From the NCBI GenBank assembly GCA_012523405.1, contig JAAYIN010000072.1:1-64000 (forward strand): DNA of 64,000 bases, read 5' to 3'. The DNA is from Clostridiales bacterium. GTDB lineage: Bacteria > Bacillota > Clostridia > Christensenellales > Aristaeellaceae. Positions 14,884 to 20,872 of the stretch are shown here, one piece after another. Made by a program: the position numbers and the translations under genes. The notes beneath the pieces were generated by a model. The model made no database searches and had not been told where the DNA came from. It was given only the letters and a program-made list of their open reading frames with translations. The stretch's first letter is position 1, and every line of letters begins with the position of its first letter.

Positions 14884-15801
14884 TTATTTCAGGAATCCAT
14901 TGACGATCTCCTGCTCCGCTTCTTCCTCATCCATGCCAAGGCTGCGAAGCTTCATGATCTGCTCTCCCGCGATTTTTCCGATGGCCGCTTCGTGAATCAA
15001 TGCGGCATCCACGTGGTTTGCAGTCACGTCGGGAACCGCCTTAACCATGGCCTGATCCATGATAATCGCATCGCATTCGGAATGCCCCGAGCACATATTA
15101 TTGCCATTGATGACAGAATAGAAATACTGCTTTGAGTGCCCGCGTGCCACAGAGCGGGAAATCAGATTGGCGCTGGAATTTTTTCCATCCAAATTCACTT
15201 CGAATTGGGTGGTGGCGCTCTGGTTGCCTCCCGTCATCAGCTTTTCCTTGATGATGAGGCTGGCATCATCGGCGATGTCCGCTTTTGTGACTCGCTCGGT
15301 GCTGTCCACGCCATCAATTTGCACGGTTTCCATCTCTAGGGTTGCGCCCTTTTCCAAATGGATAATGGTCACGGGATTGAGCACATTGCTCCCCTCGCCG
15401 CTGCCTTCTCCATAATGCTTTTCCGTATATTGAACTCTGGCATTTTTCCCTACGTGGAATGTGTGAATGCCATCATGCTGGGTCAGATGCATACCGTCGT
15501 TGTGGATGCCGCAGCCCGCGATGATTTCGATATTGGCATTTTCACCAATATGAAAGTCGTTATAAACCAAATCCGTTACGCCGCTGCTGTCGATGACAAC
15601 AGGAATATGCAGCCTCTCATTTTGAGTGCCTGGGCTTACGTATACATCGATGCCGCTGCCATCAGGCTTGCCAGTGATGCGGATGTTCTTGGTGCTCACC
15701 ATGCGGTAGCCCTTTCCGTTGATTCGGATATTATACGCACCCCCAAGCTTTTCGGTGATGCCTGAGACGATCTTCAGTAAATTTGCAGCAATCGCATTCA
15801 T
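14884..15801 (-). CDS. sufB: SufB/SufD-type Fe-S cluster scaffold protein
   Basis: About 305 residues from ATG 15801, with GGGAGG seven bases ahead. It is much shorter than enterobacterial SufB (~490) and matches the compact SufB of archaea and clostridia that works with SufC alone (SmsCB-type minimal SUF system). Marks are the beta-helix core with VVIDSSGVTDLVYNDFHIGE, GCGIHNDGMHLTQHDGIHTF and the C-terminal helices AAIGKIAGEQIMKLRSLG typical of SufB/D. It assembles iron-sulfur clusters in the cytoplasm together with SufC. No sufS or sufU is nearby, so the sulfur donor is encoded elsewhere. Confidence 0.88.
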   Translation of the reverse strand: MNAIAANLLKIVSGITEKLGGAYNIRINGKGYRMVSTKNIRITGKPDGSGIDVYVSPGTQNERLHIPVVIDSSGVTDLVYNDFHIGENANIEIIAGCGIHNDGMHLTQHDGIHTFHVGKNARVQYTEKHYGEGSGEGSNVLNPVTIIHLEKGATLEMETVQIDGVDSTERVTKADIADDASLIIKEKLMTGGNQSATTQFEVNLDGKNSSANLISRSVARGHSKQYFYSVINGNNMCSGHSECDAIIMDQAMVKAVPDVTANHVDAALIHEAAIGKIAGEQIMKLRSLGMDEEEAEQEIVNGFLK

Positions 15802-15805
15802 GCGC

Positions 15806-16534
15806 TCAAGCCTCCCTTTTGTAGAACTTACAGGTGTCCGGATTGCCCAGCAAGGAGGGCAGAATGTCCTCCCGCCTGCCTTGGGCGCTGATGACGCCAT
15901 CGGCAATGACAACGATTTTATCCGCTATTTCAAGGATTCTTTCCTGATGGGAAATGATGATGATCGAGCCGTTGGTTTCCCGCCTCAGCTTTTGAAACAC
16001 CTCAATGAGGTTGTGGAAGCTCCATAGGTCGATGCCTGCCTCAGGCTCATCAAAAATGGACAGCTTGACATTCCGTGCGATCAAAATAGCGATTTCAATC
16101 CGCTTCATTTCGCCCCCTGACAGGCTGGCGTTGAGCTCTCGGTTGATGTAGTCCATGGCGCAAAGACCCACCTGCGATAGGTATTCGCATGCCTCCGCTG
16201 TGGTGAGGCTTCTGCCCGCCGCATATTGCAGCAGCGCCTTTACATCAAGACCCTTGAACCTGACAGGCTGCTGAAACGCAAAGCCGATCCCTCGTCTGGC
16301 TCGTTGGGTGATATCAAGACCTGTGATGTTCTCTCCGTCAAAGATGAGGTCTCCGCTGTCGGACGGTTCCAGCCCCATGATGATTTTGGACAGGGTGGAT
16401 TTACCGCCTCCGTTTGGACCGGTGATCACCACAAAGCTCCCTGTGTCCACCGTCAGGCTCACATTTTTTAAGATGTCCTTTTGATGATTGTTCTCATCAA
16501 CGGCACTAAAACAAATATTCTTCAGTGTCAGCAT
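15806..16534 (-). CDS. sufC: Fe-S cluster assembly ATPase SufC
   Basis: 242 residues from ATG 16534 (MLTLKNICFS). Walker A is GPNGGGKST, the signature LSGGEMKRIEIA, Walker B LSIFDEPEAGIDL, and the H-loop IISHQER. DEPEAGIDLWSF with GGEMKR is characteristic of SufC rather than of transport ATPases. It powers the conformational change of SufB during cluster assembly. It is the middle gene of the marR-sufC-sufB operon, with a 4-base gap to sufB and a structured ~134-base leader after the marR gene. Confidence 0.92.
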   Translation of the reverse strand: MLTLKNICFSAVDENNHQKDILKNVSLTVDTGSFVVITGPNGGGKSTLSKIIMGLEPSDSGDLIFDGENITGLDITQRARRGIGFAFQQPVRFKGLDVKALLQYAAGRSLTTAEACEYLSQVGLCAMDYINRELNASLSGGEMKRIEIAILIARNVKLSIFDEPEAGIDLWSFHNLIEVFQKLRRETNGSIIIISHQERILEIADKIVVIADGVISAQGRREDILPSLLGNPDTCKFYKREA

Positions 16535-16668: not shown

Positions 16669-17148
16669 CTATAGGGACGAGCCGGTGCAGTTGCAATCAC
16701 CGCAGCATTCAAACTCGCTGATGGGGAGCATGGAGATTTGATCAAGAAAGTCCATGATCAGCGTGGCATCGCTTTCTTCAAGGGTGCTTAGATAGCTGCA
16801 TATACGCTGATTCGCCTCTTTGTGATATTGCTCATGACCCCGCCTAACCTCGTCCCCAAGCTCCGTCAGCCGATAATACTTTTCCTTTTTATTGCCGCTT
16901 TTTAGGTATCTTGCAATGAAACCCTTCTCTTCCAGCTGGTTTCCGATTTGGGTGACTGCGCCTCTGGTAACCCCCATCATGCGGGATAGGGTGATGGCGT
17001 TGCATTCCGGATGCTTGTGGACGCAGTCTATCAGGTTGATTTCTGAATGGTATAGGAGGTGACTCGTGCCATAATTCCTTGGCTTCTTTTCCTCCTCCAT
17101 CAGGGCGCTTAACGTGGTGAAATAGCGATGGATGATTCTGCACTGCAT
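16669..17148 (-). CDS. MarR-family regulator with C-terminal Cys cluster, suf operon regulator
   Basis: About 159 residues from ATG 17148; a GTG seven codons upstream lacks a ribosome site. The winged helix is clear: SEINLIDCVHKHPECNAITLSRMMGVTRGAVTQIGNQLEEKGFIARY, then a wing with NKKEKYYRLTELG. The C-terminus carries ECCGDCNC, four cysteines within seven residues, close to the end. MarR proteins normally have no such tail. Next to sufCB it is a plausible iron-sulfur or iron/redox sensor, by analogy with the Cys-ligated cluster of unrelated regulators IscR and SufR. A perfect operator overlaps its own -35 box, so autorepression is likely. Confidence 0.85.
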   Translation of the reverse strand: MQCRIIHRYFTTLSALMEEEKKPRNYGTSHLLYHSEINLIDCVHKHPECNAITLSRMMGVTRGAVTQIGNQLEEKGFIARYLKSGNKKEKYYRLTELGDEVRRGHEQYHKEANQRICSYLSTLEESDATLIMDFLDQISMLPISEFECCGDCNCTGSSL

Positions 17149-17205
17149 CGGAATGATCAGTCCTTTCACTGCACTCAGGCATAAAATATGGTCTCCTGCA
17201 TAGAA

Positions 17206-17259
17206 AGTATACCATTCCCATGCCCGAATGTCAATATTGTTTAGCTACTAAACAATATT
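17206..17259 (-). promoter_or_regulatory. marR-sufCB promoter with overlapping MarR operator
   Basis: On the reverse strand TTGACA (17229-17234), a 17-bp spacer and TATACT (17206-17211) form a near-consensus promoter. A perfect 12-bp inverted repeat, AATATTGTTTAG-CTA-CTAAACAATATT (17233-17259), overlaps the first bases of the -35 box. The size and symmetry suit a MarR dimer, and binding there would block RNA polymerase. Confidence 0.85.
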
Positions 17260-17950: not shown

Positions 17951-18703
17951 TTAGCAGTGGTCGTGATGGTGATCTGCACATGATGAGCCATCTGCATGGC
18001 TATGGTGATTGCACATCACGTTTGCATTGTAATCCAAAGTGCCTGCCAAGAATGCCTGCACCAATGGGTCTGTATCTCCCTGCGTGCCGCCATAGACATC
18101 AATGCCCGCTTTGGCTAGCGCGTCCTTTGCGCCTTGACCGATGCCGCCGCAGATAAGGGCTGTGACTTCCCATGACCGCAGCATCCCCGCCAGCTCGCCA
18201 TGACCCTTTCCATTTGAGGATAAAACTACGCTGGAAGCGATTTTGCCATCCTCAATGGCATATACCTTGAACTGCTCTGTTTTGCCGAAATGTTGAAATA
18301 CTTTTCCGTTTTCATAAGTGACTGCGATTTTCATTGGACCATTCCTCCTGATTTTGATTTCCTGTGCATGGCATTTGCCCGCGCAGCGATTTAAGCCATG
18401 ACAGTATTGTCGATGCTCGCAAAGTCGGTATTCCCCGCCGCCAATCGAAAGTGTCAGCCCCTCCACAATGCACTGTGCGATTTTCCGCCGTGCACTGGCG
18501 TAGGTGGCTTGAGCGGTTGTTCTGGCCACTTCCATTTGATCGGCGCATTTCTCCTGCGTATAGCCCTCAAGGTCAATCAGGCGAATGGTCTCATATTCGT
18601 CAATTGTCATGGGCATGACACCCTGTCGGCATCCGTTTTCAGGACCAAATTCGTTGCACGTTGGCATGGTGCAAACCCTGCGCCATTTTCTTGGACGTGG
18701 CAT
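17951..18703 (-). CDS. DUF134 DNA-binding protein fused to a NifX/NifB-like cofactor-binding domain
   Basis: About 250 residues from ATG 18703 with AAGGAGGT ahead. The N-terminal MPRPRKWRRVC is the DUF134 start, followed by a sigma-region-4-like helix-turn-helix (MTIDEYETIRLIDLEGYTQEKCADQMEVARTTAQ). The second half (KIAVTYENGKVFQHFGKTEQFKVY ... ICGGIGQGAKDAL) is the dinitrogenase iron-molybdenum cofactor-binding fold. The tail CNHHSHADGSSCADHHHDHC is rich in His and Cys and should bind metal. Such fusions occur in anaerobes next to Mrp-type Fe-S proteins; here the gene is alone. It may regulate itself through the palindromes upstream. Confidence 0.85.
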   Translation of the reverse strand: MPRPRKWRRVCTMPTCNEFGPENGCRQGVMPMTIDEYETIRLIDLEGYTQEKCADQMEVARTTAQATYASARRKIAQCIVEGLTLSIGGGEYRLCEHRQYCHGLNRCAGKCHAQEIKIRRNGPMKIAVTYENGKVFQHFGKTEQFKVYAIEDGKIASSVVLSSNGKGHGELAGMLRSWEVTALICGGIGQGAKDALAKAGIDVYGGTQGDTDPLVQAFLAGTLDYNANVMCNHHSHADGSSCADHHHDHC

Positions 18704-18725
18704 GGCAGTACCTCCTTCGCGGTTA

Positions 18726-18768
18726 TTGACATATGTCAATTATAAAACTGTATCTGGCATATGTCAAT
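18726..18768 (-). promoter_or_regulatory. Consensus promoter with two palindromic operator sites
   Basis: On the reverse strand TTGACA (18762-18767), 17 bp and TATAAT (18739-18744) match the sigma-A consensus exactly. The perfect palindrome TTGACATATGTCAA (18726-18739) spans the start point, and a near copy (TTGACATATGCC, 18756-18767) covers the -35 box. Their centres are about three helical turns apart, so a dimer pair or tetramer could bind and repress. Confidence 0.8.
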
Positions 18769-19003: not shown

Positions 19004-19143
19004 AGAGGTAAGCGTGTGGCAAGATTTTGTACTTGTGTTTCGCAAGTGTTGATAAAAATGGTTGGGGGAATTGCCTAAATCAAATGCCGCTGACGATCAA
19101 ACAAAACTAAATGCTTCGGCATAATGAGTTGCCACACGCCTCT
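19004..19143 (+). ncRNA. Candidate retron msr/msd RNA
   Basis: The end repeats are CGTGTGGCAA (19013-19022) and TTGCCACACG (19129-19138), as expected for the a1/a2 stem that frames a retron RNA. AGAGG and CCTCT extend it across a 4-base bulge. Inside, ACTTGTG-TTT-CGCAAGT (19031-19047) is a 7-bp msr-like hairpin. In the second half ATGCCG (19084-19089) can pair with CGGCAT (19117-19122), a candidate msd stem. The RNA ends about 20 bases before the reverse transcriptase start. The branching guanosine and the exact msd limits cannot be fixed from sequence alone. Confidence 0.75.
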
Positions 19144-19162: not shown

Positions 19163-20872
19163 ATGGGAAATTTCAAGGACATAGCAACGCGGAATGAACT
19201 AGCGGATTTTTTGGGGTTTCCAAGGCGAAAACTCAGTTATATTTTATATGTTAAAAGCACAGATGCATATTATCAATCATTTACAATACCAAAGAAAAGT
19301 GGTGGTGAGCGCTGTATCAACGCTCCTACCGGTGATTTGAAGGATATTCAGAAGAAGTTGGCAATGGCTTTATGGAAGCATCAATTGGATATTCGGACAA
19401 GCAGAAATATTCGTACAAACATATCTCATGCATTTGAAAAAGGCAAGGGAATTATTTCGAATGCGCAAATTCATAGAAACAAAAGATATGTACTGAATCT
19501 TGACCTGAAGAATTTTTTTAGCAGCTTTCATTTTGGCAGAGTGAAGGGTTATTTTGAGAAAAACAGAGACTTTGAGCTGCCAAACCAGGTGGCTACTGTG
19601 ATTGCACAGTTGACTTGTTTCCAAGGATGCTTGCCTCAAGGTGCACCCACTTCGCCAATCATCACCAATATGATATGCCAAATACTGGACATGAAGCTCT
19701 TGCGGATAGCCAAAAGGTATAAGCTTGATTATTCCAGATACGCGGATGATTTAACTTTTTCTACTAACAACAGGGCATTCTTAGGCATGCAATCCGAATT
19801 TTATGAAGACGTAGCAAAGGAAGTTACGAGTGCAGGATTTACTATCAATGAGAAGAAAACAAGATTGCAATATAAGGATTCCAAGCAGGTTGTGACAGGA
19901 TTGATCGTTAATAAAAAACTGAATGTTGATCGTATATATGCTCGAAAAACAAAGGCAATGGCGCATACCCTTTACACAAACGGTGAGTATACAATAGATG
20001 GAAAAATCGGAACGCTGAAACAGCTGGAGGGTCGGTTCGCATTTATCAATCAGCTTGACAAATATAACAATAAGCGGGATGGAAAAGGAGAACATAAAGG
20101 GTGGAATCTTAACAGCAGGGAAAAACAATATCAGAAGTTTTTGTTCTATAAATATTTCTTTTCCAATAGCAAACCGATTATAGTAACGGAAGGAAAAACA
20201 GACGTAGTCTATATGAAAGCAGCGCTCAGGAAGCTCCATGCCGAATATCCTTGTCTGATTGAAAGAAAACCTGATGGTACATTTGAGTATCATGTATCAT
20301 TTTTAAAAAGGTCAAAAAGATTGTCTTATTTCCTTCATATTTCTCAAGATGGTGCAGATACAATGAAGAATCTTTTCAACTTTTTTTCCCCGACGAGTGA
20401 CAATAAGAGAGTATATCCGGATTACTTGACGTATTTTATGAAGGCTGGCAATTGCTCTGCCCAAAATCCTGTTATTCTTGTTTTTGATAATGAGCTTTCA
20501 AGCAAGAATAAACCTATTAAAAAATTCTCTGATCATGTAAAGCTTGATGATGTGAGGAGAGAAACTCTGAAGCGAATACTGCATTTGAAGCTCATTGACA
20601 AAGGAAATCTATATCTTTTGACAAACCCGTTGGTTGACGGGAAAGACGAATGCGAAATAGAGGATTTGTTCGATGAGAACACTCTGTCACAAGTGATAGA
20701 TGGCAGAACGTTTTCGCGTGATATAAAAAAAGGCGATACTCAGCATTATGGGAAAGAAACATTCTCCATGTTCGTTTCTCGTAATCACATGAATATAGAT
20801 TTCAGCAGGTTTAGAGAAATGCTGAATATACTCAATGAGATCATCGGGCTTTATCACAAACCAGAGGTTTAA
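19163..20872 (+). CDS. Retron reverse transcriptase fused to a TOPRIM domain
   Basis: 569 residues, ATG preceded by GAGGTGA. Retron-specific marks are present: region X NAQIH (residues 100-104, NAxxH), catalytic YADD (193-196) and VTG (244-246) before the thumb. LPQGAPTSPIITN is motif 4. From about residue 335 a second domain begins with KPIIVTEGKTD (Glu343), followed by VILVFDNE (442-444), the TOPRIM glutamate and acidic pair, here D-N-E rather than D-x-D. A fused C-terminal TOPRIM domain and this length match retron Ec67 (Eco2), where it acts as the toxic effector against phage. The gene is AT-rich compared with its neighbours, which suggests recent gain. No phage or integrase genes flank it. 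Confidence 0.93.
   Translation: MGNFKDIATRNELADFLGFPRRKLSYILYVKSTDAYYQSFTIPKKSGGERCINAPTGDLKDIQKKLAMALWKHQLDIRTSRNIRTNISHAFEKGKGIISNAQIHRNKRYVLNLDLKNFFSSFHFGRVKGYFEKNRDFELPNQVATVIAQLTCFQGCLPQGAPTSPIITNMICQILDMKLLRIAKRYKLDYSRYADDLTFSTNNRAFLGMQSEFYEDVAKEVTSAGFTINEKKTRLQYKDSKQVVTGLIVNKKLNVDRIYARKTKAMAHTLYTNGEYTIDGKIGTLKQLEGRFAFINQLDKYNNKRDGKGEHKGWNLNSREKQYQKFLFYKYFFSNSKPIIVTEGKTDVVYMKAALRKLHAEYPCLIERKPDGTFEYHVSFLKRSKRLSYFLHISQDGADTMKNLFNFFSPTSDNKRVYPDYLTYFMKAGNCSAQNPVILVFDNELSSKNKPIKKFSDHVKLDDVRRETLKRILHLKLIDKGNLYLLTNPLVDGKDECEIEDLFDENTLSQVIDGRTFSRDIKKGDTQHYGKETFSMFVSRNHMNIDFSRFREMLNILNEIIGLYHKPEV

Follow-up and report, generated by a model that had tools for sequence, protein, structure and literature searches.

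To our knowledge, the known regulators of suf and isc operons belong to families other than MarR: IscR is a member of the Rrf2 family, and SufR is another winged-helix protein. Within the MarR family, cysteine-based switches such as OhrR are common, and the metal site of AdcR is composed of His and Glu residues. A MarR-type Fe-S regulator would not be without precedent, since ChlR of cyanobacteria has been proposed as one; according to the accessible part of the source, this MarR-type protein controls a gene cluster, and an oxygen-sensitive [4Fe-4S] cluster was reported after chemical reconstitution (PMC4500134). ArnR, a cluster-binding regulator, is described in the accessible part of a second source as having a MarR/ArsR-like winged helix (PMC12343034). 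The accessible part of PMC12192291 names no regulator of the SMS system, and the word MarR is absent from the main text of that paper. We also found no MarR regulator of suf or sms genes in the open-access literature (titles and beginnings of abstracts of the matches listed), a collection that mostly excludes subscription journals and excludes all preprints. Control of cluster supply in anaerobes with the ancient minimal SMS or with clostridial SUF seems to be little known.

Here we analysed a 64-kb stretch of DNA (the window), on the minus strand of which a promoter is followed by marR, sufC and a short sufB (Table 1). An earlier sequence-only reading had proposed this gene order, which is confirmed by the open reading frames and by Pfam matches. 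It had also pointed to four cysteines within seven residues at the MarR C-terminus, and the translation bears this out: the frame (16669-17169, minus strand) ends in ...EFECCGDCNCTGSSL, with the tail FECCGDCNC. As the start of marR, ATG 17148 is more likely than the longer reading from GTG 17169, because relatives open with MxC at that place. A YcxB-like gene (PF14317; 17363-17875, plus strand) is divergent from marR, so that the palindrome described below sits between two genes.

Table 1. Positions of the genes, conserved cysteine codons and predicted control elements of the marR-smsC-smsB locus within the window
Feature	Position	Strand	Remarks
marR	16669..17148	-	159 aa from ATG 17148, MQC start; MarR fold in the AlphaFold2 model
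sufC, SmsC-type ATPase of cluster scaffold	15806..16534	-	family matches; best solved relative MJ0035
sufB, SmsB-type scaffold protein	14884..15801	-	305 aa; SUFBD_core 1.4e-21; best solved relative MJ0034
Cys3 codon	17140..17142	-	just before helix 1; kept in 11/11 type I proteins with intact N-terminus
Cys117 codon	16798..16800	-	close to where the long helix (96-121) ends; kept in 11/12
Tail C148-C-G-D-C-N-C154	16687..16707	-	outer two Cys invariant in 12/12 (alignment A5), inner two not conserved
Predicted operator AATATTGTTTAG-cta-CTAAACAATATT	17233..17259	.	perfect 12-bp arms (17233-17244 and 17248-17259, 100% match), 3-nt spacer
Predicted sigma-70-type promoter of the marR-smsC-smsB unit	17206..17234	-	TTGACA-17-TATACT, 11/12 consensus positions, TG before -10

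The regulator belongs to the MarR family by test: Pfam PF01047 matches the window protein with E 1.2e-10 and 41.5 bits (cut-off 24.6), and the same model is above its cut-off for the relatives L030 (28.7 bits) and L037 (30.4 bits; a type II protein, see below). AlphaFold2 models the monomer with a MarR fold (mean pLDDT 89; 88 for L030), and Foldseek matched it to FabT, ZitR, PcaV, YusO and SlyA (probability 1.00, TM about 0.5-0.65). The nearest solved folds include FabT, on top, as well as ZitR, PcaV, AdcR and PefR. None of the Pfam or NCBIfam matches shown for the protein belongs to the SufR or IscR families, both of which have models in these libraries. Its classification as an Fe-S sensor would be by analogy only.

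The identity of the downstream pair is less straightforward than its gene order. The product of sufB scores far below the cut-offs of the SufB, SufD and SmsB models; for SmsB (NCBIfam NF052511) it reaches 52.7 bits with a cut-off of 650, the model being 445 positions long, whereas the MJ0034 chains have 316-321 aa. It has MJ0034 (9h7y, E 2e-16) as its closest solved relative, with 4dn7 (E 2.1e-16), a 429-aa protein annotated simply as an ABC protein, matching equally well; for the sufC product the closest is MJ0035 (9h78, E 3.3e-38). As we understand it, MJ0034 and MJ0035 make up the SMS pair described in PLoS Biology in 2025 (PMC12192291). The window pair resembles SMS both in these relatives and in consisting of SufC and short SufB homologues without SufD, as SMS requires, and its proteins are called SmsC and SmsB below. 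A difference concerns the C-terminal region of SmsC, which has one Cys and no C-X-X-C in the window protein, whereas C-X-X-C is found in about 75% of archaeal SmsC according to the accessible part of PMC12192291. The last 25 residues contain a Cys in the window SmsC and in the other marR-linked SmsC read (9/9).

The locus, earlier described as a minimal SUF operon, is a short SufC-SufB pair of the SMS (SmsCB) kind. Full sufCBDSU operons, too, are found behind members of this MarR group. That it is the only SUF system of its host turned out to be wrong. The host assembly (96% complete) encodes two SUFBD_core proteins, both short, and no full-length SufB or SufD was found in it. The second short SufB (G000:C123:77595-78506, locus L137), which rules out the window pair as the sole system, also belongs to an SmsCB pair, one with no adjoining marR and no exact operator core. 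In the SmsB tree this second copy stands with one protein from the same genus and one from the same family. The window pair is thus an extra SMS-like copy, probably acquired sideways to judge from this tree. By eye, the second pair lies about 165 bp behind a gene resembling an FAD oxidoreductase with a Rieske-like end.

We propose that the MarR protein is a dedicated local Fe-S regulator that carries a Cys-held cluster and acts as autoregulating repressor of marR-smsC-smsB, a reading in which we have moderate confidence. A MarR-type dimer would bind the 27-bp palindrome touching the -35 box of its own operon, and in this way would control marR, smsC and smsB together. C3, C148 and C154, helped perhaps by C117, would hold an Fe-S cluster in the dimerisation region. 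When clusters are plentiful, the cluster-bound protein would cover the edge of the -35 box and repress the operon; upon cluster loss or iron shortage, the apo-protein would release the DNA and the scaffold genes would be made. We infer cluster binding, the DNA-binding form, repression and autoregulation; the Fe-S reading draws support from the conserved, near-unique operator, from the linkage to suf/sms genes, and from the fact that the two machineries headed by this MarR, SMS and SUF, have the Fe-S cluster as their common product. Taken as a whole, the earlier interpretation of a sensing MarR on suf is partly supported. The proposed logic, in which an operon includes the gene for its own cluster-sensing regulator, is that of SufR and IscR.

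The wider claim is put forward more tentatively, namely that these proteins represent an undescribed family of Fe-S-sensing MarR repressors whose ligands come from the two chain ends and whose operator is a single site, that they travel as a cassette between SMS and SUF as two different cluster-building machineries, and that they include the first known regulator of a bacterial SMS system. In this reading, the regulator may even draw its cluster directly from the scaffold under its control. Our data suggest that Cys-tailed MarR proteins may be a kind of Fe-S sensor perhaps not previously described in anaerobic bacteria. If true, another protein family would have evolved Fe-S feedback on cluster assembly. 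As a candidate it is well defined: the residues are named and the operator is one 27-bp site, so that four point changes and this site would allow a direct test of the hypothesis.

For the cysteines, we aligned 12 type I proteins sharing 36-54% identity with the window protein (alignment A5). L032 is truncated at its N-terminus, hence C3 could be counted in 11 proteins; C117 is missing in L002. In a second alignment (11 of the 12 proteins) C148 falls from invariant to 'at least 90%'. The spacing of the tail cysteines varies (Cx5C, Cx6C, CxCx2C, CxCxC, Cx2CxC and CxCx6C), so that the last Cys column depends on the placement of gaps. The sequence-only reading had taken the entire CCGDCNC tail as the sensing element, of which the outer C148 and C154 stand as conserved and the inner two do not, C149 and C152 being extras of the window protein itself; moreover, C3 and C117 outside the tail are conserved as well. 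All four tail cysteines acting as the sensor can be ruled out, since C149 and C152 are not conserved. Type II proteins (four compared) have another set, consisting of C22, C46, C106 and C152 plus a terminal RCEKCxRIY. With ChlR the window protein shares the MarR-type architecture and the proposed Fe-S cluster. The proposed ligands differ: in the accessible part of PMC4500134, those put forward for ChlR are N-terminal (Cys-x4-6-Cys-Pro, two per chain), whereas here one N-terminal, one long-helix and two tail cysteines would be involved. The window protein lacks the ChlR motif, having only C3 near its N-terminus. The targets differ too, ChlR activating tetrapyrrole genes, with no suf target named for it in the same part of that source.

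How these residues could come together is suggested by the models. Residues 2 and 147 are bridge residues in both AlphaFold2 models (window protein and L030); when paired by elimination, C3 would stand beside C148, as read from the secondary structure. In the model, the long helix runs on for four residues after C117. Confidence in the tail is low (mean pLDDT 73 for residues 141-150 and 51 thereafter), and a meeting of the four cysteines in space is suggested at the level of the model.

The four conserved cysteines would also fit a zinc site or a thiol switch. In the latter case, the MarR would answer oxidants or reactive sulfur through disulfides, persulfides or mixed thiols formed by its cysteines instead of through a bound cluster, the operon being induced during cluster damage. 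OhrR illustrates how common Cys-based switches are in this family. SarZ is described as a further one in the accessible part of PMC4500134, and SMS is thought to use mineral sulfide (accessible part of PMC12192291); the possible contact of C3 with C148 in the models would suit a disulfide as well. We nevertheless regard a thiol switch as unlikely: four conserved cysteines per chain exceed the need of a one- or two-Cys switch, and the spacing of the tail shifts, yet at least two tail cysteines and C3 are kept, as would be expected for ligands of a cluster or metal rather than for one disulfide.

As a metal sensor in the manner of AdcR and ZitR, the protein would coordinate Zn(II), Fe(II) or some toxic metal through its cysteines, with or without His residues, and the operon would be metal-regulated. 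AdcR-family zinc MarRs are indeed among the nearest named families and are matched by 12/12 type I proteins; ZitR and AdcR share the MarR fold and are among the nearest solved folds, and several members carry His residues at YHxE and HxxxH. The AdcR family model (NCBIfam NF038251), however, gives the window protein 30.3 bits, far below its cut-off of 175, and the conserved residues are cysteines, not those of the His/Glu site of AdcR. Invariance within the group is seen for the cysteines but not for the His residues, and HxxxH also occurs in many Cys-less relatives. In addition, the genes directly downstream of marR in the suf/sms loci read are cluster-assembly genes. Metal sensing is distinctly unlikely in our view.

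A comparison of 86 MarR relatives showed how closely the tail goes with the locus. They came from 125 loci, after removal of duplicates, loci without a tblastn match and proteins below 100 aa. Of the suf-adjacent MarRs, 17/17 carry two or more Cys among their final 30 residues, versus 1/69 of the others. The sole exception, L060, has its two Cys inside the last helices and ends without a tail. That L060 is a broken gene was considered and rejected: its open frame looks normal and ends before any tail, and the stops are taken to lie beyond the end. Types I and II form one clade each and are joined with 95/95 support on full sequences; without both ends and all cysteines the joint group appears in 17% of bootstrap trees. 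Because the Cys tail and the suf linkage are phylogenetically clustered, the 17/17 amounts to one or two events, and the clade structure rules out treating the contrast with 1/69 as independent data. The Cys tail accordingly has one or two origins and was retained afterwards.

The sequence-only reading had also reported a perfect 12-bp inverted repeat overlapping the -35 box of a consensus promoter, and the repeat and the promoter were both recovered. Of the -35 box TTGACA, the first two bases are shared with the end of the repeat. A palindromic operator in its own promoter is what MarR family members have, and the site predicted here conforms to this. The promoter match alone is not significant, as three promoter-like sites were observed in the stretch and 3.5 were expected from shuffles. 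The inverted repeat is a different matter. Among perfect 12-bp repeats in the window, this is the only one with a 3-base spacer, and two others have spacers of 6 and 8 (spacers 0-8 tried). Across the 3.56 Mb of the host assembly, the exact core TTTAGnnnCTAAA is present at a single site, versus 10 matches per strand for the reversed control. For this reason, and because the same arrangement is found in diverged relatives, the repeat is beyond chance. In 16/16 marR-suf/sms promoters read, the core (9 or 10 of 10 positions) is followed after 5-7 nt by a -35-like hexamer and, 15-17 bases beyond the latter, by a -10-like one. Together with the 17/17 proteins having at least two tail Cys, these 16/16 promoters confirm that cysteines and operator are conserved together beside suf, as was to be checked from the outset.

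A stricter pattern, TTTAGYWGCTAAA, was searched in eight genomes with its reversed version as control. In 5/8 of them (G000, G093, G101, G830 and G832) the marR promoter is the sole site of a match. Two genomes (G049 and G831) have no exact match, because their marR operators carry a one-base change in the core. Five exact cores (L098-L102) were found in the fragmented Gallicola MAG G833, none of them on its marR contig, where the sequence upstream of marR is cut off. As the reversed control gave 0-6 matches per genome, single matches are near the chance number, and the information lies solely in where they occur. That the core is exclusive to Cys-tailed MarRs is ruled out by the Cys-less sister MarRs L066, L226 and L231, which have TTTAGnnnCTAAA sites near their own genes. 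By eye, Cys-less sisters sharing the core (L065, L066, L225, L226 and L231) adjoin flavodoxin-like and metallo-beta-lactamase-like genes.

The position of the operator bears on the direction of control. Nearly all of the palindrome is upstream of the -35 box, at near-constant spacing, as might suit a MarR that activates the operon from there as holo- or apo-protein, in the manner of ChlR, described as an activator in the accessible part of PMC4500134. Against this, the hexamers agree with the consensus at 9-12 of 12 positions across the 16 promoters, and near-consensus promoters as a rule need less activation. In 3/4 type II promoters (L036, L221 and L222), a further copy of the operator is located at or just after the -10 box, a repressor position, and repression is therefore favoured. 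Activation is about as unlikely in our view as metal sensing.

The MarR was searched, as protein or alignment, in 60 relatives, 391 genomes of the class and 398 of the phylum, and in 58, 249 and 247 genomes of three further orders; a named genome collection, scanned once, yielded five loci. In 18 genomes whose neighbourhoods were read, marR is directly followed by sufC. Type I MarR precedes SMS-like pairs in ten genomes (G000, G049, G093, G831, G833, G974, G999, G1001, G1002 and G1150). In three more, a Clostridiaceae MAG and two R. cellobioparum records, it stands before full sufCBDSU. Type II MarR is present in five genomes (G101, G309, G753, G1057 and G1058), where 4/5 loci read as full sufCBDSU and the contig of G309 ends inside sufC. 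Since the suf/sms linkage recurs in 18 genomes with conserved cysteines and operator, it is very improbable that this is an ordinary drug- or fatty-acid-type MarR standing beside suf by chance with incidental cysteines, even if FabT is both the nearest named family by score (38 bits, cut-off 200) and the top fold match.

The gene is patchily distributed among near relatives. In the 60 relatives, 18 genomes gave a match at E 0.001, with the window, L002 (G049) and L003 (G015) as the only strong ones; L003 shares 33% identity and has neither a Cys tail nor sufC alongside. The suf-linked gene is absent from the matches of all 16 other genomes of the genus. Short SufB was detected in 96/391 class genomes (97 matches), and 90 of the 97 loci were read, seven not having been fetched. 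All 90 have sufC upstream, and marR was present in 2/90. Nearer relatives contributed 18 loci, including two that had been counted before, and marR was present in 1/18. Most SmsCB pairs do without this regulator.

For the SmsB tree, 57 rows were chosen from the short-SufB loci read and the marR-linked loci. The marR-linked SmsB proteins form one clade (100/99), in which 10/10 rows have marR versus 0/47 other rows. The marR-linked rows of other orders were found via the MarR, so that marR-less relatives within the clade may have been missed and the clean clade may partly reflect sampling. As far as sampled, the regulator appears to go with one SmsCB lineage.

Other genes were seen just upstream of smsCB. 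In four loci of one genus (L131, L133, L142 and L156), a DtxR-like regulator with the tail C-xYDE-..-KCxxC directly precedes smsCB; in L133, the only one of the four scanned, PF01325 and PF02742 are over their cut-offs. By its sequence, this DtxR-like protein is a second, unrelated Cys-tailed regulator on an SMS system. By eye, heavy-metal P-type ATPase-like genes lie just upstream of smsCB in L117, L168, L169, L174, L199 and L200, and an ArsR-like regulator does so in L167.

A search of the 64-kb window with Rfam at gathering scores gave no match. Near the SMS locus, the minus strand encodes a DUF134 domain fused to a dinitrogenase Fe-Mo cofactor domain (17951-18739), the protein ending in a His-/Cys-rich tail (HHSHADGSSCADHHHDHC). 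Further along, on the plus strand (19163-20872), we identified a retron Ec67-type fusion (NCBIfam retron_Ec67_fus, 647 bits, cut-off 450). It is preceded, at 19012-19139, by an 11-nt perfect inverted pair (GCGTGTGGCAA/TTGCCACACGC), as expected of retron RNA ends.
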